Below the pieces are notes generated by a model. That model made no database searches and was not told where the DNA came from. It saw nothing but the letters and a program-made list of their open reading frames with translations. A stretch of DNA of 64,000 nucleotides from Alphaproteobacteria bacterium. GTDB lineage: Bacteria > Pseudomonadota > Alphaproteobacteria > UBA6615. Positions 39,108 through 56,847 of the stretch are shown here, piece after piece. Numbering within the stretch: position 1 is the first letter of the stretch; each line of letters begins with the position of its first letter. The stretch is taken from the NCBI GenBank assembly GCA_039980135.1, contig JBDXCV010000009.1, positions 257,854 to 321,853 on the forward strand. Reading direction: 5' to 3'. The position numbers and the translations under genes are program-made.

Positions 39108-40214
39108 TCAGGCACAGAATGCGATCCGGAAACCGATATGCGGCCCAAAGGCTTCACGTCCATAATTCAGATTGAGGCAGAATATCCCGCTGCTGTGCAA
39201 GTGGTAATAGTCGCCGGCCCTCAGCACCGACCGTTCGCCGAACGAACGCGCCCACAGCCCAACACCGCCGCCGGTCACCTCCGGGTCTGGGGGGAATATT
39301 GTGAGGGATTTGAGCAGCGGATAATGGGGGGCGGGGATATCGGTTCCCAGCGAACCAAACGGCCCGGATAGATGTGCGTCCTCGTCGGAATCGCGTTGCA
39401 GGAAGTTGTCCGTCGTCGTCGAGAGCTTGGGCATACCGAGATTGCCGGAGTGTCCCGGCTCCACGCCATCGAACTTGAGCGTTCCGGGCGTGGCCGGTTC
39501 GACCATCGTGCCGTCAGGCATCAGCGCGCGCCAGGCACTCGAAACCAGGTCGCAGATCGAACCGCCCACGGCGGCATCATTATTGGGGACGATCTGTATT
39601 TCCCCGTCGATAAGACGCAGCCCCGCATTCCACTCCCAGACATTCCCGACCATGTCGGCGACGCCGAACGGCGTTCCATCGTGGTTCCAGGAATCCGGCC
39701 CCGAACCCGTCAGCGTTCGCGGTGTTTCGACACCCTCCTCCGTTATTCGATCGGGCGTCAGGACACCCTCTTCTTCCGGCGCGTCATGGGCCTTCCCGGC
39801 CACCGTATTGCCTCGCGGCAAACTACCCGCCTTCCACGCCTCCAGAGCGAGACACGCCCATTCGGCGTTTGTCATGAGATGCCAGCCCGGGCCCTTTGCG
39901 CTCGCCGCCTGTGCGGCCTCGTCGAAGTTCATGTCGATGGCCGGGTCCAAATGGGGCAGCGATACCGCCGAACCCGATACCATCGCGGCCTTGTACTTGC
40001 CGACGAAAACATCGCCGACTTCGACGCCATGTCGCACGAATGCCGGCTGTACACCCGTTCCGAGCGACGGATCGATGTCTTCGAGATTGACCTTCGGCAG
40101 CAACACCATCACCGAAGGGTTACCGTGAATGTCATAGAGAACGGTATTCCGCCCCGCGGAGGCTTTTTCGACATACAGGCGAAAGCTGTCGGGTATGTAG
40201 AAATTCAAAGACAT
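39108..40214 (-). CDS. FGE-sulfatase/C-type-lectin-fold protein with DGR-target-like C-terminus
   Basis: A 368-residue protein with hallmarks of the formylglycine-generating-enzyme (SUMF1)/CLec fold: T-N-A-E-W-A at 115-120, D-M-V-G-N-V-W-E-W at 187-195 and a final G-F-R-I-A-F. The FGE active-site Cys pair is not evident, so it is not an obvious sulfatase activator. The last 50 residues (R-A-G-D-Y-Y-H-L-H-S-S-G-I-F-C-L-N-L-N ... I-G-F-R) follow the pattern of variable regions in proteins diversified by diversity-generating retroelements. No reverse transcriptase or template repeat is seen in this window. It lies between two paralogous membrane proteins and may bind glycan or cell surface structures. 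Confidence 0.8.
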   Translation of the reverse strand: MSLNFYIPDSFRLYVEKASAGRNTVLYDIHGNPSVMVLLPKVNLEDIDPSLGTGVQPAFVRHGVEVGDVFVGKYKAAMVSGSAVSLPHLDPAIDMNFDEAAQAASAKGPGWHLMTNAEWACLALEAWKAGSLPRGNTVAGKAHDAPEEEGVLTPDRITEEGVETPRTLTGSGPDSWNHDGTPFGVADMVGNVWEWNAGLRLIDGEIQIVPNNDAAVGGSICDLVSSAWRALMPDGTMVEPATPGTLKFDGVEPGHSGNLGMPKLSTTTDNFLQRDSDEDAHLSGPFGSLGTDIPAPHYPLLKSLTIFPPDPEVTGGGVGLWARSFGERSVLRAGDYYHLHSSGIFCLNLNYGREAFGPHIGFRIAFCA

Positions 40215-41979: not shown

Positions 41980-43257
41980 TCAGGCCAGACGCGCGCGCAA
42001 ACGGCGCCATATCGGCATGACACCGGGAACATTCCGCAGTTTCTGCAGACGTGCCATCCGCACGACAGCAAAAAGCAATTTTAATTTGATGCCGGCGCCC
42101 TCGGGGGCCACGGGCGGCGGCGGAGCCACCGGCTCGTAGAAGCTGTGAAAAACAGGCTCTCGCCAGCCACGGAACCTGGCGCGCCGCCGGGCGCGCGCGG
42201 CGTACGCGGTCTCATCCTCGAACCGCAGAATGGAATCCGGCGTCGCCAGCCGGTCCCGGATCACGTCAATTGTCTCGGCGCTTTCCGCTTCGACGGCTTC
42301 CCACAAATCCTCATCCTCAATTGCCTGGCCGTGCCAGCGAAACGGAATGGTCGAAAATTCTCGGTGGATCAGCGCTGCATATTCCTCCGCCCAGTGCGCA
42401 ATATGTACCAGCCGGATAGGTACATCGAGCGGTTGTGGCGGTGAGGTTGGGGTCCGGATGCTGCACATCGCGAACTCATCCGAATCGCGCGCGAAATATA
42501 CGCCGTCGAGCGAACGGAAGAGCCGCGGTACATATTCTTCGTCGAGGCTGACAATGAACTCGTTCAGATAAAACGGATTGTCGCGCTGGACCCGGATCAC
42601 CAGCGGATGCAAATGAAAACATCGAAACAGCATCCCCTCATCGGGGACATTCCAGATCATGTAGGCCGGGCCGATATTGCTCCGCTCACCACCCATGATG
42701 TAGCCCGATATCATCGGATGAAAATGACGTGTCGATGCATCGACCAGGAGACGCGGCGGAATTTCGATCACCGCACCTTCACCCGTCGGCGTGATCACCT
42801 CATTCTCGACGATTGCCGGGTCATCGAAGATGGATTTGAGAACGGCGGGAATCGGGAACATCACCGCATCCTTGCCTTCAACGATGCGCCGTGCGGCGTT
42901 GGTGATCGTTCCGGTCGCGCAGATAAAATCCGGGTACAGAAAAAAGATCGCGTCGAAATTACCCGACCGTTTCAGAGCTTCCAGCTGTGCCATGCTGGCG
43001 CCGATATACTTGTTGTGCCGCGGGATCTTGTCGATCTCCACATACTGCACATCGATCAAACGCTTCAGGCGACGCATGATCGGTGCCGCTTCGAGAATTT
43101 TGCGATCCTGCGCGGTCGTCAGGATCATGTACTGGGACCCTTCCAACCACGGAAAACCCGAAAGATTTCCATAGGCGAGCTGGGTCGGAAGCGACTGCTC
43201 CAGAAACTCCCGCACATAGCTCGGTCCCCAGACAATCAGGGGGAATAGAAACCTCAT
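41980..43257 (-). CDS. Unrecognised glycan-locus protein, family with 44477-45604 (copy 1)
   Basis: A 425-residue soluble-looking protein that I do not recognise. It shares with the protein at 44477 the opening M-R-F-x-V-V/L-x-x-V-W-G, then S-L-P-T, F-F-L-Y-P-D-F-I near residue 112, F-H-L-H-P near 215 followed by D-N-P, S-L-D-E/D-E, and D-x-x-A-M-C-S-x-R. The Y-P-D-F segment after a hydrophobic strand and the two-domain length are reminiscent of GT-A enzymes, but there is no clear DxD. This copy has a Pro-rich linker near 385 and a basic C-terminal extension. It overlaps the GT2 gene by 4 nt. Confidence 0.7.
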   Translation of the reverse strand: MRFLFPLIVWGPSYVREFLEQSLPTQLAYGNLSGFPWLEGSQYMILTTAQDRKILEAAPIMRRLKRLIDVQYVEIDKIPRHNKYIGASMAQLEALKRSGNFDAIFFLYPDFICATGTITNAARRIVEGKDAVMFPIPAVLKSIFDDPAIVENEVITPTGEGAVIEIPPRLLVDASTRHFHPMISGYIMGGERSNIGPAYMIWNVPDEGMLFRCFHLHPLVIRVQRDNPFYLNEFIVSLDEEYVPRLFRSLDGVYFARDSDEFAMCSIRTPTSPPQPLDVPIRLVHIAHWAEEYAALIHREFSTIPFRWHGQAIEDEDLWEAVEAESAETIDVIRDRLATPDSILRFEDETAYAARARRRARFRGWREPVFHSFYEPVAPPPPVAPEGAGIKLKLLFAVVRMARLQKLRNVPGVMPIWRRLRARLA

Positions 43258-44476: not shown

Positions 44477-45604
44477 CTAGAGCCCGGTGTTTCTGTGCAT
44501 GAAGTAGCCGGAGCGTCGCTGGCGCGCCTTGTAGGCATCCGGGTCTTCGATCGCGAGAAGGGAGTCGGGTATGGTGAGGCGTTTGCGCAAATTTTTCATG
44601 AAGCGCCGCGCTTCGACGGATTTCTCCTCCCATTCGGAAGACGTCATATCGCGGTAATGCCAATAGAATTGCTGGCGGGTGAAGTATCGGAGGATCAGGC
44701 TCGAGCTCTCCTCGGCCCACAATGCCGCGCGGGCCAGGTTGAGCCGGCTACCTTCCATCGGGTGGGGAGGATCTTCGACGCTGCGTGTGCTGCACATGGC
44801 AAGATCGTCAGAATCGTTGATGAACGCCAGCTTGTCGCCAATTGTGAAGACGCGTGAGATGAACTCGTCGTCCAGGCTGATTTCGAAGTGACGAAAGAAC
44901 TCCGGATTATCCTTTTCCAGAAGCAATCCGGTCGGATGCAAATGAAAACTGTGAATGATCTGACCCTGGCCGATGATCGGCCAGACAAAGAGTGCGGGCC
45001 ATTCGGCGTAGACCCCGCTGTCGGTCTCGTAACCGCGATTGACCGGATGGGGATAAAGGATATCCAGCTCGACGAGCTGGCGTGGCTCGATACTGATTTC
45101 CTTGCCCTGAGCGGTCCCGACCTCCATTCCGTGGGCTCTGAACAATCCCCCACAAACCGCTTCCTGCGAAATATAGGGAATTGGGCACAGCACCGCGCGG
45201 TAGCCGTCTGCAAGCTTCTCGGCAACCGTCCGCAAGGATCCTGTCGAGTAGATGAAGTCGGGATACAGGAAAAAGATACCGTCACAGGTTTCTGCCGCAC
45301 GTTTCATGCCCGCAGTCTGCGCGATCGAGACCCGATTATACTTATGGATATCGACAGAGGTATCGACCTGGATGTCGTCGATGAACATCACATCGACTTC
45401 CAGCAGACGTTCCAGGCGCTGGTAGGTGGCCGCTTGCGAAATCTCCGCAAAATCCTCCCGGGTGGTCATCAACTGATACACAAAGTGCTCAGTCCAGGAA
45501 TTCTCCAGAAAGTTTCCGCGTGAAAACAGTGTCGGCAGCGAGTGGTTGACCAACAAGTCGACATAGGTGTGCCCCCAAACGACTGTGTTGAGCGCAAATC
45601 TCAT
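44477..45604 (-). CDS. Unrecognised glycan-locus protein, family with 41980-43257 (copy 2)
   Basis: A 375-residue protein of the same unnamed family as the one at 41980. Landmarks in order: V-V-W-G-H-T-Y near residue 8, H-S-L-P-T near 21, F-F-L-Y-P-D-F-I near 112, F-H-L-H-P near 220 followed by D-N-P-E-F, S-L-D-D-E near 240 and D-D-L-A-M-C-S-T-R near 265. This copy lacks the Pro-rich extension. It overlaps the O-methyltransferase by 4 nt, so it is translated in one operon with it. The conserved acidic and His positions suggest an enzyme with metal or nucleotide binding, not established. Confidence 0.7.
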   Translation of the reverse strand: MRFALNTVVWGHTYVDLLVNHSLPTLFSRGNFLENSWTEHFVYQLMTTREDFAEISQAATYQRLERLLEVDVMFIDDIQVDTSVDIHKYNRVSIAQTAGMKRAAETCDGIFFLYPDFIYSTGSLRTVAEKLADGYRAVLCPIPYISQEAVCGGLFRAHGMEVGTAQGKEISIEPRQLVELDILYPHPVNRGYETDSGVYAEWPALFVWPIIGQGQIIHSFHLHPTGLLLEKDNPEFFRHFEISLDDEFISRVFTIGDKLAFINDSDDLAMCSTRSVEDPPHPMEGSRLNLARAALWAEESSSLILRYFTRQQFYWHYRDMTSSEWEEKSVEARRFMKNLRKRLTIPDSLLAIEDPDAYKARQRRSGYFMHRNTGL

Positions 45605-46335: not shown

Positions 46336-46513
46336 ATCGCCCCTGCGCTGTCACAGCCCTGTAGGCGCAACACACGAATTTGCCCACGTTACGCGCATTT
46401 TCCGCACACATGCTTATACTTGAAGGCACACGATTGTTGCAGTGCTAGTTTACGTTTTTGCCCCGTACCGACGGCGAAAAAGAAGACCCCCGCGAAAGGT
46501 CAGGACCGAAGCA
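46336..46513. other. Divergent intergenic region with uncertain Nudix leader
   Basis: The gap between the O-methyltransferase (-) and Nudix gene (+). It contains the AT-richer stretch near 46410-46460, likely promoter territory. An in-frame GTG at 46442 would extend the Nudix protein by 24 very basic residues. The TTG at 46514, with AGGA at 46502-46505, is a better-supported start. Confidence 0.45.
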
Positions 46514-46993
46514 TTGGACCGGAACCATGTATTCATCACCGATGATTCGACGCTCGTACCCGATGACGCGGCCGTCGCCATAATCCGCGACGACGAGGGC
46601 AAATACCTGCTCCAGCACAGAGATGAGAAGCCCGGCATCTTTTTCCCCGACCATTGGGGTTTCTTTGGCGGCGCCCTGGAACCCGGGGAGACACCGGCTC
46701 AGGCATTGATTCGGGAACTGGCCGAAGAGCTTGATATTCACGTCGAGGAACGCACACTGAACCAACTGACCGTGTTTGGCTTCGACTTCGAGTTTGCCGG
46801 CGGCCCGAGGATCGACCGAACCTTCTTCGAACTTTCACCCGGCAACGACCAGCTCCGATCGCTTGATCTCGGGGAGGGCCAGGATTTCGGTTTTTTCAGC
46901 GGTGACGAAGCACTGACGCGACTTCGCTTGGCACCGTATGACGGCTTTGCACTCTGGATACATTCAAATCAGGACAGGATTGCGCGCGGCTAA
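46514..46993 (+). CDS. Nudix hydrolase
   Basis: A 159-residue Nudix-fold phosphohydrolase (183 residues if the GTG at 46442 is used). The Nudix box runs from G-G-A-L-E-P-G-E-T-P near residue 52 to R-E-L-A-E-E-L-D, keeping the Glu ligands for Mg or Mn. W-G-F-F-G-G before the box is typical of the family subset that hydrolyses nucleotide sugars (GDP-mannose mannosyl hydrolase-like) or oxidised nucleotides. In this locus a role in nucleotide-sugar turnover is plausible. It is a lone plus-strand gene between two minus-strand operons, converging on Wzt with a 42 nt gap. Confidence 0.87.
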   Translation: MDRNHVFITDDSTLVPDDAAVAIIRDDEGKYLLQHRDEKPGIFFPDHWGFFGGALEPGETPAQALIRELAEELDIHVEERTLNQLTVFGFDFEFAGGPRIDRTFFELSPGNDQLRSLDLGEGQDFGFFSGDEALTRLRLAPYDGFALWIHSNQDRIARG

Positions 46994-47035: not shown

Positions 47036-47803
47036 TCAGTGGCTGCTAACTTCCGCCACCCGCTTTGCATAGACTTCGATTGATTCTTCGACCGCACCGA
47101 AATGAACGAGGTTTCCTTTTTCCAATACAATCGCCTGGTTGCAGAATTTTCGAATGATGTCATTGGAGTGAGACGCAATGACAAGAATGTTCGCATCCTC
47201 GAGCATCTGCTCGAGGCGCTCGTTGGCCTTGTTCATGAACGCCGCATCACCCGCGCCAATGACCTCGTCAAGCAGCAGAATGTCCGGCTTCAGGGCGGTA
47301 GCTACGGCAAACGAAAGACGCGCACGCATGCCGGATGAATAGGTGCGAATGGGCAGGCTCAGAAAGTCCGACAACTGCGTGAACTCTTCAATATCGGGCA
47401 GCGCGTCCTCGATCTCGTTGGCGGTCATACCGAACACCAATCCTTGCAACCGGATATTGTCTCGGCCCGTAAGATCCTCGTCGAGCCCCAGGGAGATGCT
47501 GAAAAGAGTCGAGATGATGCCGTCTGTCGTGACCGATCCGCGCGTCGGCGCATAGATATTGGCCATCACGCGAAGCAGTGTGCTTTTACCCGAACCGTTA
47601 TGCCCGAGTATTCCCAGGCGTGTACCTTCGTTGATGTCGATACTGATTCCGTCCAGCGCCGATATAATCAGCTGGTTGCGCGCCGTAATTCCCAGTTTTC
47701 CGCCCAGAAATTCACGGAAAAACTCGGGATGCAGCAACCGGTTCTGGCTTACATGGCTGATGCGGAAATCCATACCCACATCTGTCAGCTTAATGGACGG
47801 CAT
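47036..47803 (-). CDS. wzt: ABC transporter ATP-binding protein, polysaccharide export (Wzt/KpsT-like)
   Basis: A 255-residue ATPase of the polysaccharide-export ABC class. Walker A is G-H-N-G-S-G-K-S-T near residue 67, the signature is Y-S-S-G-M-R-A-R near 152 and Walker B is D-I-L-L-L-D-E near 172, all in the Wzt/TagH/KpsT form. It stops soon after the nucleotide-binding domain and so lacks the C-terminal carbohydrate-binding module found in Wzt proteins that recognise modified chain ends. It pairs with the permease at 50524, although two other genes lie between them. Lipid-linked chains made in the cytoplasm are the probable cargo. Confidence 0.92.
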   Translation of the reverse strand: MPSIKLTDVGMDFRISHVSQNRLLHPEFFREFLGGKLGITARNQLIISALDGISIDINEGTRLGILGHNGSGKSTLLRVMANIYAPTRGSVTTDGIISTLFSISLGLDEDLTGRDNIRLQGLVFGMTANEIEDALPDIEEFTQLSDFLSLPIRTYSSGMRARLSFAVATALKPDILLLDEVIGAGDAAFMNKANERLEQMLEDANILVIASHSNDIIRKFCNQAIVLEKGNLVHFGAVEESIEVYAKRVAEVSSH

Positions 47804-47830
47804 TGATCTACTTCTTCGGGTCGCGGGGCG

Positions 47831-49600
47831 TCAGCGCCACGCCATATCGGCGCGCAGCTTGTCGTCAAATTGTTCGATGGTTCTCTCGGCCTGCTCATCC
47901 GAAAGCACCTCCGTCCAGTTCATATCCTTATCCACGGGCACACCTTCCCACACACTGTCCGGCACACCCAGCGTGGCTGCAATCTCGCGACGCCGGTCCG
48001 TGTTGTCACCATCGGCCTCACTCATGAGGATGATCGGCCAGTTGGGACGTTTGTCGAAAAACTCGATCCACCCCTGAATCCAATCTGCCATCAATGGAAC
48101 AAAGTTCTCGATCTGCCAGTCGACCAGTTCCGATGCATTTGTAAACTGTCCCTCCTGCAAGGGCGGGCTCAATCCCGCCTCAACAATCTGAGACTGCCCC
48201 TGATCCTCGAAGTAGAGGCGCGTCCGTCTGGCGACGATCAGCCGCGGGTCGCTGACATGTACGATCACCGCCGCGAGCGCCAGTTTCAGGCCATCGAGAT
48301 TCCTGGGGGAGGCGTCGAGATACGTCGCCGCAACGCATCGTCGGTCCTGGAGGAACGCATCCGTCGACAGCAGATCGTTCGGAAAGTATCCGTTGCACAG
48401 TTCCACCGGCACAAACTCAGCCGCATCGCGCATCGCTTCCGCAAGTGACTCACTTCGCGAAAACGGCAACCCCGCGATAACGATGTGACTGTCATGGAGT
48501 GACGGGCTGTCCGCATCATCGTCCGCCGCCGTCCGCAACTTCCTGAGCCGTTCTATTTCCGCTTCCGCCTCGACGAATGCGTGTTTCGCCCCCGCAAGCT
48601 CCTCGAGCGTTTTCTCATGATCGGCAAGAACCTGTGCCACCTCGTCGCTCACGTCTTTCTGCAGACCGGCGACGAGACCACGGACTTCATCCAGTTCCGT
48701 ACGCAACTCGGTTTCACCGCGACGAGCTTCGTCGGCCGAAGCCTGCAACGCACCAATCTGAGGTTCGAGTTCATTGACGCGGTCGCGCGCGGCCGCCAGT
48801 GCCGCCGTTAACTGGTCAATTTCAGCTCTCGAAGCTTCGGCCAATTCGCCAGCAGCACGGAGTTCTTCACTCTTGCGCTCCAACTCCTGCTGAATTGCGC
48901 TGGCATTCGCGCGCGCGTCATCGAGTTCAGCCGCGCGCGCCGCAATGTCTGCTTCCAACCCCTGCCGCGTTGCTTCTGATTCCTGCAATCGGACCACCAG
49001 AGCCCCGTTCTCGGCAGACAATGCTTCAGCCCGTTCGGACAATTCGTCGGCCTGTTTGGACATTTCGTCAGCCCGTTCGGACATTTCGTTAGCCCGTTTG
49101 GACATTTCATCAGCCCGTTCGGACATTTCGTCAGCCCGTTCGGACGATCCGATCGCCCGCGCAGTTGCCTCTTCTGCTTCAATCCACGCCTTCCCGCGAT
49201 CTTCGAGGATTTCAACATGCTTCTCGTAAATTCTGTCGATCGCCTCGAGCCCCTGCTTCAACTTGCCGCGGAGACTCTTAACTTGGCGTTCAGCCTGGTC
49301 GGCCCGGACGACCACGGCAGCCAGTTCATCAGACAGCGATTCGTTTTGACCGAGCGTCTCGTTGCGTTCGCCCAGAACCCGGTGGAACTCATCGTTTTGC
49401 CGCGCAAGGCTCGAAGCAATCTGATCACGATGCGCGATGATGTTCTCAACTTCGGCGTCACGCATATCTGCCTCCGCACGAAGCGCTTCGATCACGCGCA
49501 TCGCATGCGAATGACTGTTTCGCACCTCCTCGAGTTCGACGATTTTTACGGCGGTGTACCCGAACTCGCCGAGAACCCTTTGTATGCCGCGCCTCAGCAT
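47831..49600 (-). CDS. Long coiled-coil protein with C-terminal sulfotransferase-like domain
   Basis: A 589-residue protein in two parts. Residues about 20-370 are predicted coiled coil, rich in Glu, Ala, Lys and Arg with few Pro, including five tandem heptads of the type S-E-R-A-D-E-M near residues 150-190. Residues about 375-589 resemble a sulfotransferase: a degenerate 5'-phosphosulfate loop I-A-G-L-P-F-S-R-S-E-S, a 3'-phosphate region V-I-V-H-V-S-D-P-R near 455, and the terminal N-W-T-E-V-L-S-D-E-Q typical of the family. It lies between Wzm and Wzt, overlapping the next sulfotransferase gene by 7 nt and starting 27 nt from Wzt. A chain-length ruler combined with a capping or decorating enzyme, by analogy to WbdD, is an attractive inference. 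Confidence 0.78.
   Translation of the reverse strand: MLRRGIQRVLGEFGYTAVKIVELEEVRNSHSHAMRVIEALRAEADMRDAEVENIIAHRDQIASSLARQNDEFHRVLGERNETLGQNESLSDELAAVVVRADQAERQVKSLRGKLKQGLEAIDRIYEKHVEILEDRGKAWIEAEEATARAIGSSERADEMSERADEMSKRANEMSERADEMSKQADELSERAEALSAENGALVVRLQESEATRQGLEADIAARAAELDDARANASAIQQELERKSEELRAAGELAEASRAEIDQLTAALAAARDRVNELEPQIGALQASADEARRGETELRTELDEVRGLVAGLQKDVSDEVAQVLADHEKTLEELAGAKHAFVEAEAEIERLRKLRTAADDDADSPSLHDSHIVIAGLPFSRSESLAEAMRDAAEFVPVELCNGYFPNDLLSTDAFLQDRRCVAATYLDASPRNLDGLKLALAAVIVHVSDPRLIVARRTRLYFEDQGQSQIVEAGLSPPLQEGQFTNASELVDWQIENFVPLMADWIQGWIEFFDKRPNWPIILMSEADGDNTDRRREIAATLGVPDSVWEGVPVDKDMNWTEVLSDEQAERTIEQFDDKLRADMAWR
49029..49154. repeat. Tandem 21-nt repeat inside the coiled-coil gene
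   Basis: Five near-identical 21 nt units and a diverged sixth (starts at 49029, 49050, 49071, 49092, 49113, 49134). Each begins gcccgttt/ccggac on the plus strand and encodes one seven-residue heptad (consensus S-E-R-A-D-E-M) of the coiled coil. Units differ by one to three bases, indicating recent expansion. In-frame gain or loss would change coiled-coil length in seven-residue steps. Confidence 0.9.
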
Positions 49601-50517
49601 TCGGGCGCCCCCTCATCTGATTGATCTTCCGCCCGGTCGTGGCGCGTTGTTCCATCCGCGCTGGTGATCGCATGCTGCAGTCGTGCGGTCAGACGTTCAA
49701 CAACGTCTGGTTCATGGCTGTATCGATCTTGCAGCTCCTGCACGATGAATTCCACCGCATAGGCCGGATCACGAACCGCTTGCATAATATCGAACGTCTG
49801 CCACACGGTTTCGATCCGCCGACGGTCTTCGGTATCCAGGTCCGAGATATTTGCAGTCCCCATCTTGTGTACATGTACCGGGGAAGGCCGATATTTCCAA
49901 TCGGGATTGACGAATTTCCCGATTTCGTGGACGGCCTCTGGTTCGCTCAGATCCTCCGTGGCGATCGTCAGGACATTTCTGAAAAGGTGGATGTTCTTGT
50001 CGGTCAGTCGTGTTTGCTTGTCGACAAACCAGCCGAAACGTTCCCGCAGGCTGATGGCGCGCCATTCCTCCTCGGACATTTCGTCGAAATCCGGTGCGGT
50101 CAACCGCTGTATCGTTCTCATCCCTGGGAATTCACTCTCGTCGAACGAACTGTAGCCCAGCCAATGCTCCGGATCGATTTGAGACTGATTCTCAAGGGAG
50201 CGTGAATGCGGTTCGCGCTGTCGAGTGACGCGAATGATTCGGGTGTCCGCGCCCAGAACCGCTCGGACTGCAGGCAGTGCGAAACCGAGACCATGACTAA
50301 CTTCGAAACGTTGTTCCCATGACATCATCAGGCCGTAAAGCGGCGCAGGGTCCGACTCACACACATAGGCCCTCAAACTGGGCCAGAGATCGAATGTGTC
50401 CGATACATACCCGCAATAGGACAGGCTCTCGTTGTTGAAGAAGAGGTAACTCTGAAGGATGTTGCGTAACGATGTTGATCCATCGCGCGCCTGACAAACT
50501 GCCACACATTCAACCAT
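49594..50517 (-). CDS. Sulfotransferase-like protein
   Basis: A 307-residue protein with sulfotransferase features: a 5'-phosphosulfate-binding-like loop Q-A-R-D-G-S-T-S-L within the first 20 residues and R-I-I-R-V-T-R-Q-R-E-P-H-S near residue 92, corresponding to the 3'-phosphate motif (Arg and Ser). The C-terminal 40 residues are acidic and repetitive. It probably transfers sulfate from PAPS to a glycan in the cytoplasm before export. The stop overlaps the start of the coiled-coil gene by 7 nt and its start follows the Wzm stop by 6 nt, so it is translated with the transporter. Confidence 0.78.
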   Translation of the reverse strand: MVECVAVCQARDGSTSLRNILQSYLFFNNESLSYCGYVSDTFDLWPSLRAYVCESDPAPLYGLMMSWEQRFEVSHGLGFALPAVRAVLGADTRIIRVTRQREPHSRSLENQSQIDPEHWLGYSSFDESEFPGMRTIQRLTAPDFDEMSEEEWRAISLRERFGWFVDKQTRLTDKNIHLFRNVLTIATEDLSEPEAVHEIGKFVNPDWKYRPSPVHVHKMGTANISDLDTEDRRRIETVWQTFDIMQAVRDPAYAVEFIVQELQDRYSHEPDVVERLTARLQHAITSADGTTRHDRAEDQSDEGAPEC

Positions 50518-50523
50518 GGCGAA

Positions 50524-51297
50524 CTAGACCCAACTCGCAGCTCGGCGGTGATATCGTTCGTACAGCGGAAGTGCGAGAGCCCAGCCGACAAGCGTCACCG
50601 CGCCCACAACCATCCATGTCTCACTTTGCGGACTCTTGCCCAACAGCGGCAAGCGCGCCAGATCCAGAAAATGCGCGAACACGTTGAGCTTGACGATTAT
50701 CTGGGCGTCACCGAGCGTCTCCGAAAACCAGAAAATTGGCGTCACGAAAAAGAAAATCAGCATCACGTTCTGGATGATTTGCGGAATATCCCGGTAGCGG
50801 GTGCATACGACACCCAGCAACAAAACCACCCAGACGGCGTTCAGGAGGTAGAGCAGCAGCGCCGGCAGAATCAACAGGGTGTTCGTATTCAGCGGCAAGC
50901 TGAATATGAAGAATACTGCAATGTAGATGATGAAATTGTGCGCAAAGAGGATGGCATTGCGCGCAATGAACCGAAACACATGAACAGACATGGGCAAGTT
51001 GATTGCCTTGATCACATGCGCACTGCCGGCAAAAACCGCTGTTCCCTCGTTGACGGACGTTGAGATGAAGGTCCAGAGAATCAGGCCCGTCGCCAAATGG
51101 GGCAACAGCGCATGGGTTTCAACATTCCACAGGATCGAAAACACACCGCCAATCCCGACCACCGATACGCCGAGGCTTATGGTGGACCAGAATGGTCCGA
51201 TGACCGATCGGCGATAGCGTTGCTTGACGTCGATCCAGGCCCAGTTCAGCCAGATACGCCAGAGCAGAAATCCACGAATAACGTCCTTGCCGATCAT
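50524..51297 (-). CDS. wzm: ABC-2-type permease, polysaccharide export (Wzm/KpsM-like)
   Basis: A 257-residue inner-membrane permease with six predicted helices. The amphipathic N-terminal segment D-V-K-Q-R-Y-R-R-S-V-I-G-P-F-W near residue 23 is the hallmark of O-antigen and teichoic-acid ABC-2 exporters, and V-T-P-I-F-W-F near 187 matches the conserved C-terminal part. It forms the channel for export with Wzt at 47036. A clear ATG at 51297 follows the next sulfotransferase stop by 18 nt. Presence of Wzm/Wzt and absence of any recognisable Wzx/Wzy argues for synthesis of the full chain in the cytoplasm. Confidence 0.93.
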   Translation of the reverse strand: MIGKDVIRGFLLWRIWLNWAWIDVKQRYRRSVIGPFWSTISLGVSVVGIGGVFSILWNVETHALLPHLATGLILWTFISTSVNEGTAVFAGSAHVIKAINLPMSVHVFRFIARNAILFAHNFIIYIAVFFIFSLPLNTNTLLILPALLLYLLNAVWVVLLLGVVCTRYRDIPQIIQNVMLIFFFVTPIFWFSETLGDAQIIVKLNVFAHFLDLARLPLLGKSPQSETWMVVGAVTLVGWALALPLYERYHRRAASWV

Positions 51298-51315
51298 GAC
51301 TGCGTAATTGCCGGT

Positions 51316-52293
51316 TCACGCTGCATGGTCGAAATCCAGCACCACACTGGCGCTGCTCTCCGGCGGCAACTCGACAGGCTGACCAAGCAATTTTCCGGCG
51401 CGCGTCTTTGAGCGCTCGTTGACCGCCAAAATTGGTGCGTTGGCGGACAGTGAAAATTCCGATAGATCGCTCCAGATGGCCTCGTTCAGTCTGTCCGCCT
51501 CCGTTTCTTTCACCTTCTGATAAAGTTCCAGATCGGCATCGACAAATTCTTCGAACAGCTTGCACAGCTCATCGTAGCGCAGGCGATACTCAAACTGCCG
51601 CTCCGCGCTCCCCTGGCTGTGGATGCGCGGGAAGGCCACGCTGGGGAAATTGTATCGAACCAGATAGGCACGTACGAACTTCTCATACTCGTCGAGCGTT
51701 CCCACCAGGGTAAAATCGTTTGCGACGTTTGCTATCGCCGCATCGACATGCGAGCCCGAGAGGGGCTCATTGCGATCGACATTCCCGAGTATTGTCCGGG
51801 TCATGTAATTCTTGACGAGAACCGGCCCCTTGAGAAGCTCGTCGGCATTCCGCCGTATTCTTTGCCCGACCACATCAATGAGTTCGTCGATCGTCGTCGC
51901 CACATTGTGACTGGACAGATTCATGAACAGGCATTCCGAAACCAGGCGCTCGATCGGGTCGCGCAGGATCGTGACCGCGTCGATGGCACCGTAAGCGCGC
52001 GCTTCTACATGTAGCGGTGCATGGCCGAACATGAAGTTCCGACGTTCGGCCTCAAAAACCGAATTGTACAGTTCGCCGCAATCGTGGGGAAACCGCGCGG
52101 CACCGCTCATCCAGACATGGGTGAAACCAAACCGCGCGCAGAACGCAGAATTCAGCGTTGCAAACGTCCCGCCTCCACATTTCTGCAGATGGACGAAAGC
52201 CACGCTGCGTGCATCCAGTTCCGGTCGCCGGTCCGGATTGTAGTGCGGGTTGATGACAACGGTGGTGTCGTCCGGGCTATTCACGGCAAGCAT
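51316..52293 (-). CDS. Sulfotransferase (family 2 type)
   Basis: A 325-residue protein from the ATG at 52293; a TTG at 52338 would add 15 residues. The PAPS loop is F-V-H-L-Q-K-C-G-G-G-T-F near residue 34, matching the H-x-P-K-x-G-G-T/S pattern of carbohydrate sulfotransferases, and L-R-D-P-I-E-R-L-V-S near 110 is the 3'-phosphate site. This is the most canonical of three sulfotransferase-like genes clustered around Wzm. The product is probably a sulfated sugar or chain terminus. No PAPS-synthesis genes are in the window, so PAPS must come from general sulfate assimilation. Confidence 0.85.
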   Translation of the reverse strand: MLAVNSPDDTTVVINPHYNPDRRPELDARSVAFVHLQKCGGGTFATLNSAFCARFGFTHVWMSGAARFPHDCGELYNSVFEAERRNFMFGHAPLHVEARAYGAIDAVTILRDPIERLVSECLFMNLSSHNVATTIDELIDVVGQRIRRNADELLKGPVLVKNYMTRTILGNVDRNEPLSGSHVDAAIANVANDFTLVGTLDEYEKFVRAYLVRYNFPSVAFPRIHSQGSAERQFEYRLRYDELCKLFEEFVDADLELYQKVKETEADRLNEAIWSDLSEFSLSANAPILAVNERSKTRAGKLLGQPVELPPESSASVVLDFDHAA

Positions 52294-52401
52294 CCTGGCA
52301 ACAGATCGGGCAGACCGTCCAGAGACCGGATCGCGCAAAACGCAATGCAGGAGTCACAACCTCAGGAGGGTCCGTCGCCGGCAATTGATTTGAAGATGTG
52401 A

Positions 52402-53922
52402 TTATTTTACGTAGACCGATTCTGCCAGTTGCAGTCCCATTTTTGCCTTGCGGACAAACTCGTGGAAGCTGCTGAGTTTCCGAAGTTCACGCACAACGTA
52501 TCGCGGGCGAAAGTAAAATTTCTGGACGGCGTCGTTTCTGATCTTCTTCAACTCATCCAGCGATGCGTAGGTCTCGATAATCTCGGGCGGCAGGAAATTG
52601 GGGACCGGGCGGCACGCATATTCGCCCCAGAAGTCCGCCTTGATAACCCCCATGGAAAGGCCTTCCGTGTACATCTCCGTACCGGCATAGGGGATCGTGA
52701 TGGAGAATTGGGCGTAGTCGGCATCGAGTTCCTTGGCGAACTCGATGGTCTGGTACATGTCGGCTTTTGACTCGTCGAGATTGCCGAACATGAAGTAGGT
52801 CAGAACCGTCATCCCGGCGTTCTTTGCCAGTCGCACGGCATCGCGTGCCTGGTCCAGCGTGATCTTCTTCTTCATACGGTCGATGACATGCTGCACACCC
52901 GACTCGATTCCGAAATGAATTCGGCGGCAGCCGGCCTTGTGCATCAACTCGAGCAGGTCATCATCCACGGACGCCGACGAAACCCTGTCGCGGATGGCCC
53001 ATTCGACTCCCAGATCCGCTTCGATGAGCGCCTCGCAAATTTCCCGCAGTCGTTTACGCGACCAGGTGAAAGTGTCGTCGTAGATCTCGACTTCGCGGAT
53101 GCCCAGTGCATGAATCTCGCGAAACTCGTTCACAACACTCTCCGCCGAGCGGGCCAGGTTCTTCTGGAAGTTCAGTTTGCAGAAGGTGCACCGGTGCGGA
53201 CAACCGCGGCTTGTGATCATGGTCGTCACAAACTTCTGTTTACCGAGCACGGAACTGTAATTCTTTATCGGCAGCAATGTCCGATCGGGCTGCGGCAGGC
53301 TGTCGAGATCGCCCTCGACGAAAAAGACGTTCTGGACCGGTTTGATCCCGTGCTCCTTGAAATGCAGCCCGTCCATGGAATTGTCCAGAATGCCATGGGA
53401 CACCATGTTGCAGAGGTACAGGAAAGGTGTTTCACCATCACCGCACACAACGCTGTCGACGAACGGCACGTCGAGCGTCTCTTGCGGGTAGATGCCCAGA
53501 TGCGGCCCGCCGTAGCAAAGATGTGTGTCCGGCAGGGCCTGTTTGATCAGCTCCCCTGTGCGGTAGGCCGGATACCAGAAGTCGGTCCAAGCCGAAATTC
53601 CGACGACATCGGGACCGAACGCAACGGCCCGCTCGACGATCTCGTCGAACGAAAGCTGTTCGGCAATCGTATCGATAACCTCAACAGTGTGCGGCGAATT
53701 CTTGGCAATGTTGGTCGCGATGTAGAGAATTCCGAGCGGCGGCTTGTAACCGATCCCCTCACTCCCCTCCTCGACCTGCGGCAGAAAGGACTGCACACCT
53801 TCGATCGTCGGCCCCTGCAAAAGCAAAACCTTCAGCGGGCGCGCGGCAGTTGTCATGTGCACAGGCGCGCTGTCCGCGGCGTGCTTTGCCTGCACCAGAA
53901 AGGACTTCAGGGTATCACTCAT
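52402..53922 (-). CDS. B12-binding-domain radical SAM protein (copy 2)
   Basis: A 506-residue enzyme, only distantly like the one at 34237. The N-terminal cobalamin-binding-like domain (about residues 30-180) contains V-V-G-I-S-A-W and L-C-Y-G-G-P-H. The radical SAM core has S-R-G-C-P-H-R-C-T-F-C near 237 for the 4Fe-4S cluster and G-I-E-S-G near 325 for SAM. It is the first gene of the export operon and transcribed towards Wzm/Wzt. Possible functions are C-methylation or deoxygenation of a sugar or lipid carrier. The ATG at 53922 is clear, with the divergent region beyond it. Confidence 0.88.
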   Translation of the reverse strand: MSDTLKSFLVQAKHAADSAPVHMTTAARPLKVLLLQGPTIEGVQSFLPQVEEGSEGIGYKPPLGILYIATNIAKNSPHTVEVIDTIAEQLSFDEIVERAVAFGPDVVGISAWTDFWYPAYRTGELIKQALPDTHLCYGGPHLGIYPQETLDVPFVDSVVCGDGETPFLYLCNMVSHGILDNSMDGLHFKEHGIKPVQNVFFVEGDLDSLPQPDRTLLPIKNYSSVLGKQKFVTTMITSRGCPHRCTFCKLNFQKNLARSAESVVNEFREIHALGIREVEIYDDTFTWSRKRLREICEALIEADLGVEWAIRDRVSSASVDDDLLELMHKAGCRRIHFGIESGVQHVIDRMKKKITLDQARDAVRLAKNAGMTVLTYFMFGNLDESKADMYQTIEFAKELDADYAQFSITIPYAGTEMYTEGLSMGVIKADFWGEYACRPVPNFLPPEIIETYASLDELKKIRNDAVQKFYFRPRYVVRELRKLSSFHEFVRKAKMGLQLAESVYVK

Positions 53923-54195
53923 GCCTTCAACACCGCGCCTTTATCGTATCGGAACCAACGCTCGAATCACCCGCCGGCTCGCGGCGGCGGAGAGAAGCAA
54001 TTGTTTCTGTGCTCTAAACTTGCAACCAACTCGATTTTATAGCCGTTAACGCGTTCGAGGTCACCAACTATCCTTTTCTTCCGGCGCTGGATATTGTTGC
54101 AAACAGCCTAGGAAAACCGTGGCAAAACAGCATATTCACCGGTCGGCATTGCAAAATCCGGCGCCGAGCATTTCCACGTGGACACCCGCACTGCC
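53923..54195. other. Divergent intergenic region before the NodB-NodU fusion
   Basis: A 273 nt spacer between the export operon (-) and the deacetylase-carbamoyltransferase fusion (+). It is AT-richer than coding DNA in the parts 54000-54060 and 54090-54130, as expected for two promoters. I see no convincing terminator, RNA or operator. A GTG at 54178 lies in frame with the fusion but has no ribosome site. Confidence 0.45.
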
Positions 54196-56847
54196 ATGAC
54201 CGCAAAAACACCTGAAAAGCTCGCCTGGTGTCATGTGGACATGGATGGCCTGGAGGCCATTTACGCGCATCACGGGCGCGAACTGAAGTCGGTCGATCCC
54301 GACCATTACTTTGCCAGCGCGGTCGAACATTCCCTCGAATTCTTTGCAGAACATGCCATCAAGGCGACCTACTTCGTTATCGCAAACGACCTGGCGAAGC
54401 CGGAGCGCCTGCGTGCCGTGCGCCAGGTTGTCGACGCCGGCCACAATCTGGCGTCCCATTCGATTTCGCACGTAAAACTGCGGTTTCAGTCACCCGAGGT
54501 AAAAAAGACGGAAATCTTCGATTCAAAGAAGATCATCGAGGATGCCACCGGTGCACCCGTTATTGGATTTCGGGCGCCGGACTATGAAATCGACTTCGAA
54601 TCGCTCGAACTCATCGCGCAAGCGGGATACCGCTACGACACGTCTCTATTCGCCGACTACAGTTTTTACGAAAGGGTCGGCCTCTACCGTCTCTTTTCGG
54701 GGCCGTTTGAAGTCATTCCCGAAAGCGGACTGATCGAACTTCCCATGCCGCGGCGCGGCCTCGGAATGACGCCCTTCCATCCCTGCTATGCTTTCGTCCT
54801 GTCCAGGCACTACCACCGAATGGCCCTCAACAGGTTCGCCCGCAGCCATGACCACCTCACCTATCTGTTTCATCTGACAGACTTCGCCGACAAAATCGGG
54901 CTGCGGGGCGACCTCAAACTCAAGATCTACACCAACGATATGTCATGGAGCCGCAAGAAGCCGTTTCTAGATACGCTGGTGGGTCAACTCCGATCGCGTT
55001 ACACGATTTCCAACAGTGAAGACTTCATTGCCGATTGGCCCGCACATTCGCGCGCACGCGCACCACAAACGATTCTCGGCCTCAGTACGACCCACGAAAC
55101 CGCCGCATGCGTGGTCCGGAACGGCGAAATTCTGAGCGCCGTTTCCGAGGAACGTATATCGCGCCGCAAATTCGATACGCAGTACCCGCCGAAGGGCGCC
55201 ATTCGCGATGCCATCACGAGCGCCGGCATCGCGCCAGCAGAGATAGACGCGGTGGCAATCGCCGGACTGCAACGGCGCGATCTCGTCACGCGGTCGCTGA
55301 AAAGCCAGATCGCCGACATTCGGGATTTCCACGGAATTAGTGACTATCTGCCGCATTTCGCAAAATTCTTTTACCGGCTGTATTACTTTCTCCGCGCCAA
55401 TCAATATGGCCGTGCCCTCTCGTTCCTGCGGGACGAGTTCGGGATTACGCCGCAGGCCTATTTTATCGAGCATCACGAGGCACATGCTTCGAGCGCATAC
55501 CGGACAGGCACCACAAAGTCGGCTGTGATCATGACGGCCGATGGTGTCGGCGACGATATTTCGGTCACGATTTCCCACGGCAGAGCCGGTGTCATCCATC
55601 GTGTCTATCACCAGTTCTACCCAAACTCCTTCGGCCAGTTCTATTCAGCTCTCACACAGGTAATCGGGTTTCGCGCAAACCGTCATGAAGGCAAAGTCAC
55701 CGGTCTCGCGGCTTACGGCATGGAGAACTCGGGCGCCCTGGAAACGATACGAAGCACGGTCAAACCGAGAAGCGAATTCGTTCCCGACAAGCGCTACTAT
55801 TGCGAGGGCTTCCCAAGAGGACTGAGCATTCGAACATTGTTGACCCGGGGCCTCGGCACTGCGGCACGTTCGTTCGACTACCGGAACTACAAAGCGCCCT
55901 TGCGGCGACTGCTTCGCGGATACCGACGAGAGGATATTGCTCAGGCGGGCCAGCAAATACTCGAGCACGACGTCGGGCGCGTACTGATCGAGCACGGACA
56001 TCTGCCAGACTCGGAATTCGACCTGGCACTTGCCGGCGGCGTTTTTGCGAACGTCAAACTCAATCAGGCCATGAGCAATATCGAGAACGTCCGCTCAACC
56101 TATGTGTTCCCGAATATGGGCGACGGAGGGCTTTGCATCGGCGCCGCCCTCGCCGTCACCGCGGCTCCTATTGTGCCGCTGGCCGATGCCTATCTCGGCA
56201 ACCGGTATTCGGATGCCGAGATCGCCGACGCGATCGAACGGCATGACTGCGGACCCGTCTCGATGCCGGAGAGCATGGCAGAACGCGTTGCCGACCTGTT
56301 GTCCGAAAAGAAAACAATCGCGCGATTCGACGGCCGTATGGAGTTCGGCCCGCGAGCCCTCGGCAATCGATCCATCCTGTTTCACTGTGCCGATGCCACG
56401 GTGAACGACTGGCTGAACGAGAAGCTGGGGCGCTCGGAATTCATGCCCTTTGCACCTGTTTGTCTGTATGAGGACGCCGACGCCTATTTCCGGATTCGGC
56501 CCGGAGACCGCCGTGCGTGTGAGTTCATGACCATCACGGTTGATTGCACCGATCACATGCAGGCCCAGTGTCCTGCCGCGGTCCATGTGGATGGCACCGC
56601 CAGACCGCAGCTTTTGCGCCGCGACACAAATCCGGAACTCTATGCAATTATCGAAGCCTACAAGGCGCGCACCGGCGTTTCCTGCCTGATCAACACGAGC
56701 TTCAACATGCACGAAGAACCGATCGTCAGAAGCCCCGACGACGCGCTGCGCGCGTTCGCCGCGAGTGGCCTGGACTACCTGATCCTCGGCAACCGCCTGA
56801 TCGCCCGGGCGCCAGCGTCGGCGCCGTTGCAAGCGAATTCCGCCTAG
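54196..56847 (+). CDS. NodB-like polysaccharide deacetylase fused to NodU/CmcH-like carbamoyltransferase
   Basis: An 883-residue fusion from ATG 54196. Residues about 10-280 are a polysaccharide deacetylase (CE4 type): D15 and D17 in H-V-D-M-D-G, H88 and H92 in S-H-S-I-S-H form the metal site, and G-F-R-A-P-D-Y follows at 124-130. Residues about 285-875 are a carbamoyltransferase of the NodU/TobZ family, with the Kae1-like metal site H-H-E-A-H at 426-430, F-G-P-R-A-L-G at 717-723 and N-T-S-F-N near 833. Expected reactions are N-deacetylation and carbamoyl transfer from carbamoyl phosphate and ATP to a sugar hydroxyl. These two activities occur as separate proteins in Nod-factor synthesis. The stop shares CTAG with the convergent gene at 56844. 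Confidence 0.9.
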   Translation: MTAKTPEKLAWCHVDMDGLEAIYAHHGRELKSVDPDHYFASAVEHSLEFFAEHAIKATYFVIANDLAKPERLRAVRQVVDAGHNLASHSISHVKLRFQSPEVKKTEIFDSKKIIEDATGAPVIGFRAPDYEIDFESLELIAQAGYRYDTSLFADYSFYERVGLYRLFSGPFEVIPESGLIELPMPRRGLGMTPFHPCYAFVLSRHYHRMALNRFARSHDHLTYLFHLTDFADKIGLRGDLKLKIYTNDMSWSRKKPFLDTLVGQLRSRYTISNSEDFIADWPAHSRARAPQTILGLSTTHETAACVVRNGEILSAVSEERISRRKFDTQYPPKGAIRDAITSAGIAPAEIDAVAIAGLQRRDLVTRSLKSQIADIRDFHGISDYLPHFAKFFYRLYYFLRANQYGRALSFLRDEFGITPQAYFIEHHEAHASSAYRTGTTKSAVIMTADGVGDDISVTISHGRAGVIHRVYHQFYPNSFGQFYSALTQVIGFRANRHEGKVTGLAAYGMENSGALETIRSTVKPRSEFVPDKRYYCEGFPRGLSIRTLLTRGLGTAARSFDYRNYKAPLRRLLRGYRREDIAQAGQQILEHDVGRVLIEHGHLPDSEFDLALAGGVFANVKLNQAMSNIENVRSTYVFPNMGDGGLCIGAALAVTAAPIVPLADAYLGNRYSDAEIADAIERHDCGPVSMPESMAERVADLLSEKKTIARFDGRMEFGPRALGNRSILFHCADATVNDWLNEKLGRSEFMPFAPVCLYEDADAYFRIRPGDRRACEFMTITVDCTDHMQAQCPAAVHVDGTARPQLLRRDTNPELYAIIEAYKARTGVSCLINTSFNMHEEPIVRSPDDALRAFAASGLDYLILGNRLIARAPASAPLQANSA

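Follow-up and report, generated by a model that had tools for sequence, protein, structure and literature searches.

A protein of 589 residues, encoded between the two subunits of a Wzm/Wzt ABC exporter, combines a long coiled coil with a C-terminal head predicted to adopt the fold of PAPS sulfotransferases. By analogy with described systems, this locus can be tentatively regarded, with a little less than even confidence, as a variant form of the polymerase-coil-terminator machinery that serves glycans exported by ABC transporters, in which the protein would have a ruler- or terminator-like role. In related bacteria, the association of a coil, an intact sulfotransferase and a GT2 glycosyltransferase next to exporters suggests a chain-length ruler, with sulfate maybe serving as the cap. 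The window referred to below is the whole stretch of alphaproteobacterial DNA that was analysed (64,000 nucleotides).

The gene run and its coiled-coil protein

From position 53922 down to 47036 of the minus strand, the genes are arranged in the order radical SAM protein, ST1, Wzm, ST2, coiled-coil protein and Wzt. The following features were delineated:

47036..47803, minus strand: Wzt, ATPase of the ABC exporter, 255 aa (PF00005, 79.2 bits; NF050108, E 1.5e-73, under cut-off)
47831..49600, minus strand: coiled-coil protein, 589 aa, with a predicted C-terminal sulfotransferase-fold domain (open reading frame, profiles, heptad test, structure model, fold search)
47834..48514, minus strand: head of this protein, residues 363-589, predicted sulfotransferase fold with degenerate PAPS site (model pTM 0.70; VIA-align; motif loss)
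48521..49546, minus strand: coiled coil, residues ~19-360 (heptad contrast z = 9.5 against shuffles)
49026..49145, minus strand: 21-bp tandem repeat, 5.7 copies, encoding SERADEM-type heptads in the coil (Tandem Repeats Finder)
49538..49600, minus strand: basic amphipathic N-terminal stretch MLRRGIQRVLGEFGYTAVKIV (hydrophobic moment)
49594..50517, minus strand: ST2, sulfotransferase-like, 307 aa, loop ARDGSTSL (motif; homologue in genome G209)
50524..51297, minus strand: Wzm, permease of the ABC exporter, 257 aa (PF01061, 46.2 bits; NF050109, E 5e-79, under cut-off)
51316..52338, minus strand: ST1, Sulfotransfer_2-like, loop HLQKCGGGTF (weak PF03567 match, 13.9 bits for a cut-off of 22)
52402..53922, minus strand: B12-binding radical SAM protein that opens the run (PF04055 and PF02310)

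The earlier note, made from the sequence alone, had placed two sulfotransferase-like genes between Wzm and Wzt, one of them the coiled-coil protein. Gene order and profiles agree with this description, the small gene being ST2, but a third such gene, ST1, had been omitted upstream of Wzm. From ST1 to Wzt, the intergenic gaps amount to 18, 6, -7 (an overlap) and 27 bases, which makes a coupled run plausible.

The identity of Wzm and Wzt as exporter subunits was confirmed by profile. Their best NCBIfam matches are the Klebsiella galactan exporter models NF050109 and NF050108, respectively; the curated equivalog cut-offs are not reached (247 of 400 bits for NF050108 and 265.6 of 380 for NF050109). 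As had been claimed, Wzt is short, and Pfam profiles detect in its 255 residues neither a C-terminal carbohydrate- or cap-binding module nor any extra domain. Glycosyltransferase and carbamoyltransferase genes surround this pair, the glycosyltransferase being a separate protein that is not fused to the coil, and no polymerase was identified with certainty within the window. An APS kinase is encoded in the genome, so that PAPS can be made.

Several other genes of the vicinity can be described. Two proteins devoid of Pfam match (44477-45604 and 41980-43257) belong to a single unnamed family, relatives of which are also found near sulfotransferase genes at loci L044, L050 and L152. A NUDIX hydrolase-like gene (46442-46993) adjoins Wzt, and a similar one is observed in genome G401 (L152 8117-8584), whose cluster also holds a broken sulfotransferase gene. 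A single frame of 889 residues (54178-56847) fuses a polysaccharide deacetylase with a carbamoyltransferase, and the C-terminus of the product of 39108-40214 resembles formylglycine-generating-type or variable lectin-like proteins. Two further adjacent sulfotransferase-like genes (L013, 11805-12548 and 12566-13297) are located in the same genome, ~65 kb from the coil gene, in surroundings that appear prophage-like from the neighbouring genes.

The two small sulfotransferase-like proteins differ in the firmness of their assignment. ST2, whose end is overlapped by 7 bases by the start of the coil gene, has no Pfam match. It shares 28% identity with a domain that G209 carries in fusion with a radical SAM protein, and this homologue itself scores 19.6 against PF17784, under the cut-off of 22.8. 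The structure model of ST2 reached a pLDDT of 41, and profile comparison with the head family gave a probability of 1.2%. ST2 is therefore designated here as a putative sulfotransferase by motif only. The assignment of ST1 appears firmer, since its relative L203 passes PF03567 with 37.2 bits. Searches of PDB sequences with ST1 or ST2 alone returned nothing useful. The G209 homologue is a radical SAM/SPASM protein carrying the ST2-like domain (L202 9133-11433), and radical SAM genes are likewise present at the coil-sulfotransferase loci L010, L040 and L042.

The coiled coil of the 589-residue protein is well beyond chance. It extends over ~340 residues (about 350 in the earlier note) ahead of the C-terminal domain, and the heptad contrast of residues 19-360 stands far above shuffled sequences, compared with ~0 for three control stretches. 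The repeat-encoded heptads occupy residues 153-194; a 21-bp repeat of this kind would allow the length of a ruler to change with the reading frame intact. If folded as one unbroken helix, the coil would span roughly 50 nm (arithmetic, at 0.15 nm per residue), a value to be taken as an upper bound because the stretch holds 14 glycines and one proline. The N-terminal stretch MLRRGIQRVLGEFGYTAVKIV has the highest 18-residue hydrophobic moment of the protein (0.63 at residue 4, with coil stretches coming near at 0.61), and could possibly provide a membrane contact.

The head (residues 363-589) matches no Pfam family, PF00685 included, and Pfam and NCBIfam gave no match to a methyltransferase, kinase or Kdo-transferase head in this protein. 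A model built from three sequences reached a pLDDT of 66.6 with a pTM of 0.70. The top three rows of a Foldseek search with this model were sulfotransferases, with modest E-values (0.0045 to 0.0094), and realignment with VIA-align gave PAPS sulfotransferases for 50 of the 50 top chains, with Z of 9.8-11.8 over 166-186 residues. Sulfotransferases were likewise matched among PDB sequences by a four-row profile of the head (best E 1.1e-5). According to these models and profiles, the head is a PAPS-sulfotransferase fold, as had been proposed for this domain.

Its PAPS site is another matter. The loop lysine is gone (PFSRS versus PKSGT in HXMU1420-4 and Ferrovibrio), SDPR stands in place of RDPR with loss of the arginine, and the FRxGxxDEW segment is missing; the PSB lysine, the PB arginine and FRxGxxDEW are all present in HXMU1420-4, Ferrovibrio and G145. 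In a tree of 30 related domains, no branch is longer than that of the window head. Because three PAPS-binding motifs kept in the relatives are lost, this head is probably catalytically dead and would carry out no PAPS chemistry. The earlier description of a degenerate PAPS loop understated the extent of the loss. No close orthologue of the protein was found in the same genus, and the head was unmatched in a plasmid collection.

Relatives and their linkage to ABC exporters

A search of 95 related genomes with the window head, neighbours being disregarded, gave two outside matches, one of them in HXMU1420-4; a two-row profile then run over 385 genomes of the class added the Ferrovibrio and G145 loci. 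In HXMU1420-4, a MAG that shares its family with the window genome, a protein of 842 aa with the organization GT2-coil-Sulfotransfer_1 (PF00535, 80.2 bits; PF00685, 35.7 bits, cut-off 22) is encoded directly before Wzm. A Ferrovibrio MAG encodes a comparable GT2-coil-sulfotransferase protein of 782 aa (PF00535, 67; PF00685, 28.3, cut-off 22), directly before Wzm and then a Wzt of 619 residues. PAPS motifs are intact in both fusions. In G145, the GT2, the sulfotransferase and Wzm/Wzt are separate genes of one cluster; the GT2 is of the type present in the fusions, and the sulfotransferase (410 residues; PF00685, 35.6) bears a short helical segment. The coil stands out strongly in HXMU1420-4 (z 6.7) but only weakly in Ferrovibrio (z 2.2), and in G145 its signal is marginal (z 1.3-2.1). 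All three relatives with a segment before the domain adjoin Wzm or a Wzm/Wzt exporter, and the predicted linkage of such coil-sulfotransferase proteins with ABC exporters was thus found again in three other genomes.

A profile search of genome contigs matched only HXMU1420-4 and Ferrovibrio. When the Ferrovibrio fusion was compared with the plasmid collection, only GT2 parts were matched, including that of an Oscillatoria GT2-sulfotransferase. This plasmid protein (L205 9992-11737) consists of a GT2 and a sulfotransferase-like part, and no exporter is annotated within 10 kb of it.

At the start of the Ferrovibrio Wzt tail stands an F5/8 type C domain (28.6 bits for a cut-off of 28.2), a candidate carbohydrate-binding reader of the cap. 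Only two of the ~60 Wzt proteins surveyed have a long C-terminal tail, namely that of Ferrovibrio, where 365 residues follow the ATPase, and that of L140, with 133 residues.

The linkage was surveyed in the neighbourhoods of 34 sulfotransferase genes of the head family, over at most 10 kb per side, some being shortened by contig ends. Wzm was found within 10 kb of 4/4 sulfotransferases with a preceding coil-like segment, at distances of 35 to 7052 bases, and of 0/30 without one. The exact chance of such a partition is ~2 in 100,000 (arithmetic) if the cases are independent; they are so only in part, and the four coil cases seeded the search profile. Even if limited to four cases, this survey argues against Wzm being a chance neighbour of the coil-sulfotransferases. 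An additional frame-broken sulfotransferase without visible coil lies ~3 kb from Wzm in G401, so that proximity to an exporter also occurs for sulfotransferases other than coil proteins. No intact sulfotransferase of the head family was detected in 60 further Wzm neighbourhoods of the class, and the coil-sulfotransferase/exporter arrangement is therefore rare.

The four exporters occupy three separate positions in a tree of 63 Wzm sequences, with at least two changes forced. More than one exporter background thus shows the association, which, judging from this tree, was not merely passed on together with a single exporter. A tree of 30 domains neither supports nor contradicts a single clade of coil-type sulfotransferases.

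Possible roles of the locus

In the relatives, the glycosyltransferase end would be located at the membrane, and the coil would keep the sulfotransferase at a fixed distance from it. Only chains long enough to reach the sulfotransferase would be sulfated and then stop growing, as with WbdD and methylphosphate. In the window, this layout would be split, with a separate glycosyltransferase and a head devoid of PAPS site, and the coil protein would most likely act as a ruler or scaffold that sets the position of ST2 (or ST1) with respect to the exporter complex. ST2, whose own classification is by motif only, is the obvious candidate partner. In the window, sulfate may be carried by the chain end or by internal sugars.

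The earlier note had proposed a sulfate cap with the coil as ruler. The architecture of the relatives fits this proposal, and by analogy a sulfate cap is credible there. For the window coil protein alone it appears unlikely, since its head lacks the PAPS-site residues and Wzt the cap-binding module; a partner enzyme would be required there. The more specific scheme, in which GT2-coil-sulfotransferase proteins are sulfate-cap terminators with a coil ruler and the window a split form whose dead head, borne on a long coil with variable heptad repeats, positions separate active sulfotransferases, is itself rather doubtful. If true, sulfate capping would be a new way of terminating such chains and would give sulfotransferases a new function. 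The Ferrovibrio locus, where the GT2-coil-sulfotransferase, Wzm and the F5/8 type C Wzt are found in one operon, makes the cap idea directly testable.

The best surviving alternative, though on the unlikely side, is that ST1 and ST2 sulfate repeat-unit sugars ahead of export, with the coil protein serving only as their scaffold, and that chain length depends on how synthesis and export are balanced, as it does in Klebsiella O2a, where the coupling of extension with export has been described (PMC10629545). The shortness of Wzt and the proximity of Wzm/Wzt to the galactan exporter among NCBIfam models are in its favor, as is the presence of two separate sulfotransferase-like genes, more than a single cap needs. 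This explanation nevertheless leaves unaccounted for both the 340-residue coil and the GT2-coil-sulfotransferase fusions adjoining exporters, and the other galactan-like exporters in the survey lack sulfotransferases of the head family, the broken one in G401 excepted.

It is improbable that the locus encodes an ordinary coiled-coil protein with little or no role, whose sulfotransferase domain is decaying from a once active fusion. The loss of three of three PAPS motifs, the very long branch and the lack of a close orthologue in the genus are consistent with such decay, but the frame has remained open over 589 codons, the heptad order is strong, the gene overlaps its upstream neighbour and the head retains a foldable core (pTM 0.70). 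The export of a sulfated glycolipid or short oligosaccharide, the coil tethering modification enzymes to the exporter, is very improbable: it would agree with the accompanying radical SAM genes and with the want of a certain polymerase in the window, but Wzm and Wzt group with O-polysaccharide exporters and are surrounded by glycosyltransferase and carbamoyltransferase genes.

Comparison with known systems

A literature search returned no paper describing a sulfotransferase terminator, the 2019 terminator census (Glycobiology 29:822) being outside its coverage; sulfotransferase terminators may have been predicted earlier in that census. The word stem 'sulf' is absent from PMC11231755 and PMC10629545. 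Among the caps that end chain growth and admit ABC-exported glycans to export, methyl, methylphosphate and Kdo are well described, pyruvate being a candidate (PMC10629545, PMC11231755).

A sulfotransferase-domain gene (ORF19) likewise stands beside Wzt in the wbsalmo cluster of Aeromonas salmonicida, which encodes an ABC-exported O-antigen (PMC4483657). Its product has only 216 aa (table of PMC4483657), too short for a long coil, and the Wzt of this organism has 438 aa (PMC4483657). No sulfate was reported in this O antigen (PMC4483657), so that a sulfotransferase-domain gene adjoining Wzt need not mean a sulfated glycan.

The window Wzt is as short as that of the Klebsiella O2a galactan exporter and equally devoid of a binding module. 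The O2a system has no mechanism based on a terminal moiety and a binding module, while known capped systems have a Wzt with a cap-binding module. No coil-sulfotransferase has been described for O2a, where chain length results from coupled extension and export (PMC10629545).

The relatives and their exporter linkage support the analogy, drawn in the earlier note, with WbdD of E. coli O9a, a terminator with a coiled-coil ruler that is also present in Klebsiella O3. WbdD and the window protein both have a long coil and a transferase-type head and are encoded with an ABC exporter; in the relatives too, the coil has the glycosyltransferase at one end and the head at the other. The head is predicted here to be of sulfotransferase fold, whereas that of WbdD is a methyltransferase/kinase, and the order is reversed, with the coil first and the head last. 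The window further differs by a head without catalytic motifs and a Wzt without cap-binding module.

Published systems have their polymerase modules close to the membrane and the terminator at the distal end of the intervening coil; the cap is recognized by the ABC exporter by means of a binding module (PMC11231755, PMC10629545, PMC5082667). Like Klebsiella O7 ORF6 and O12 WbbB (PMC11231755), the Ferrovibrio and HXMU1420-4 proteins fuse a glycosyltransferase, a coil and a putative terminator. The terminators of O7 ORF6 and O12 WbbB are methyltransferase-kinase or Kdo transferase, while the relatives described here carry Sulfotransfer_1 and, unlike these Klebsiella proteins, have their glycosyltransferase at the N-terminus. 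Their GT2-coil-sulfotransferase order matches the published polymerase-coil-terminator layout (PMC11231755).
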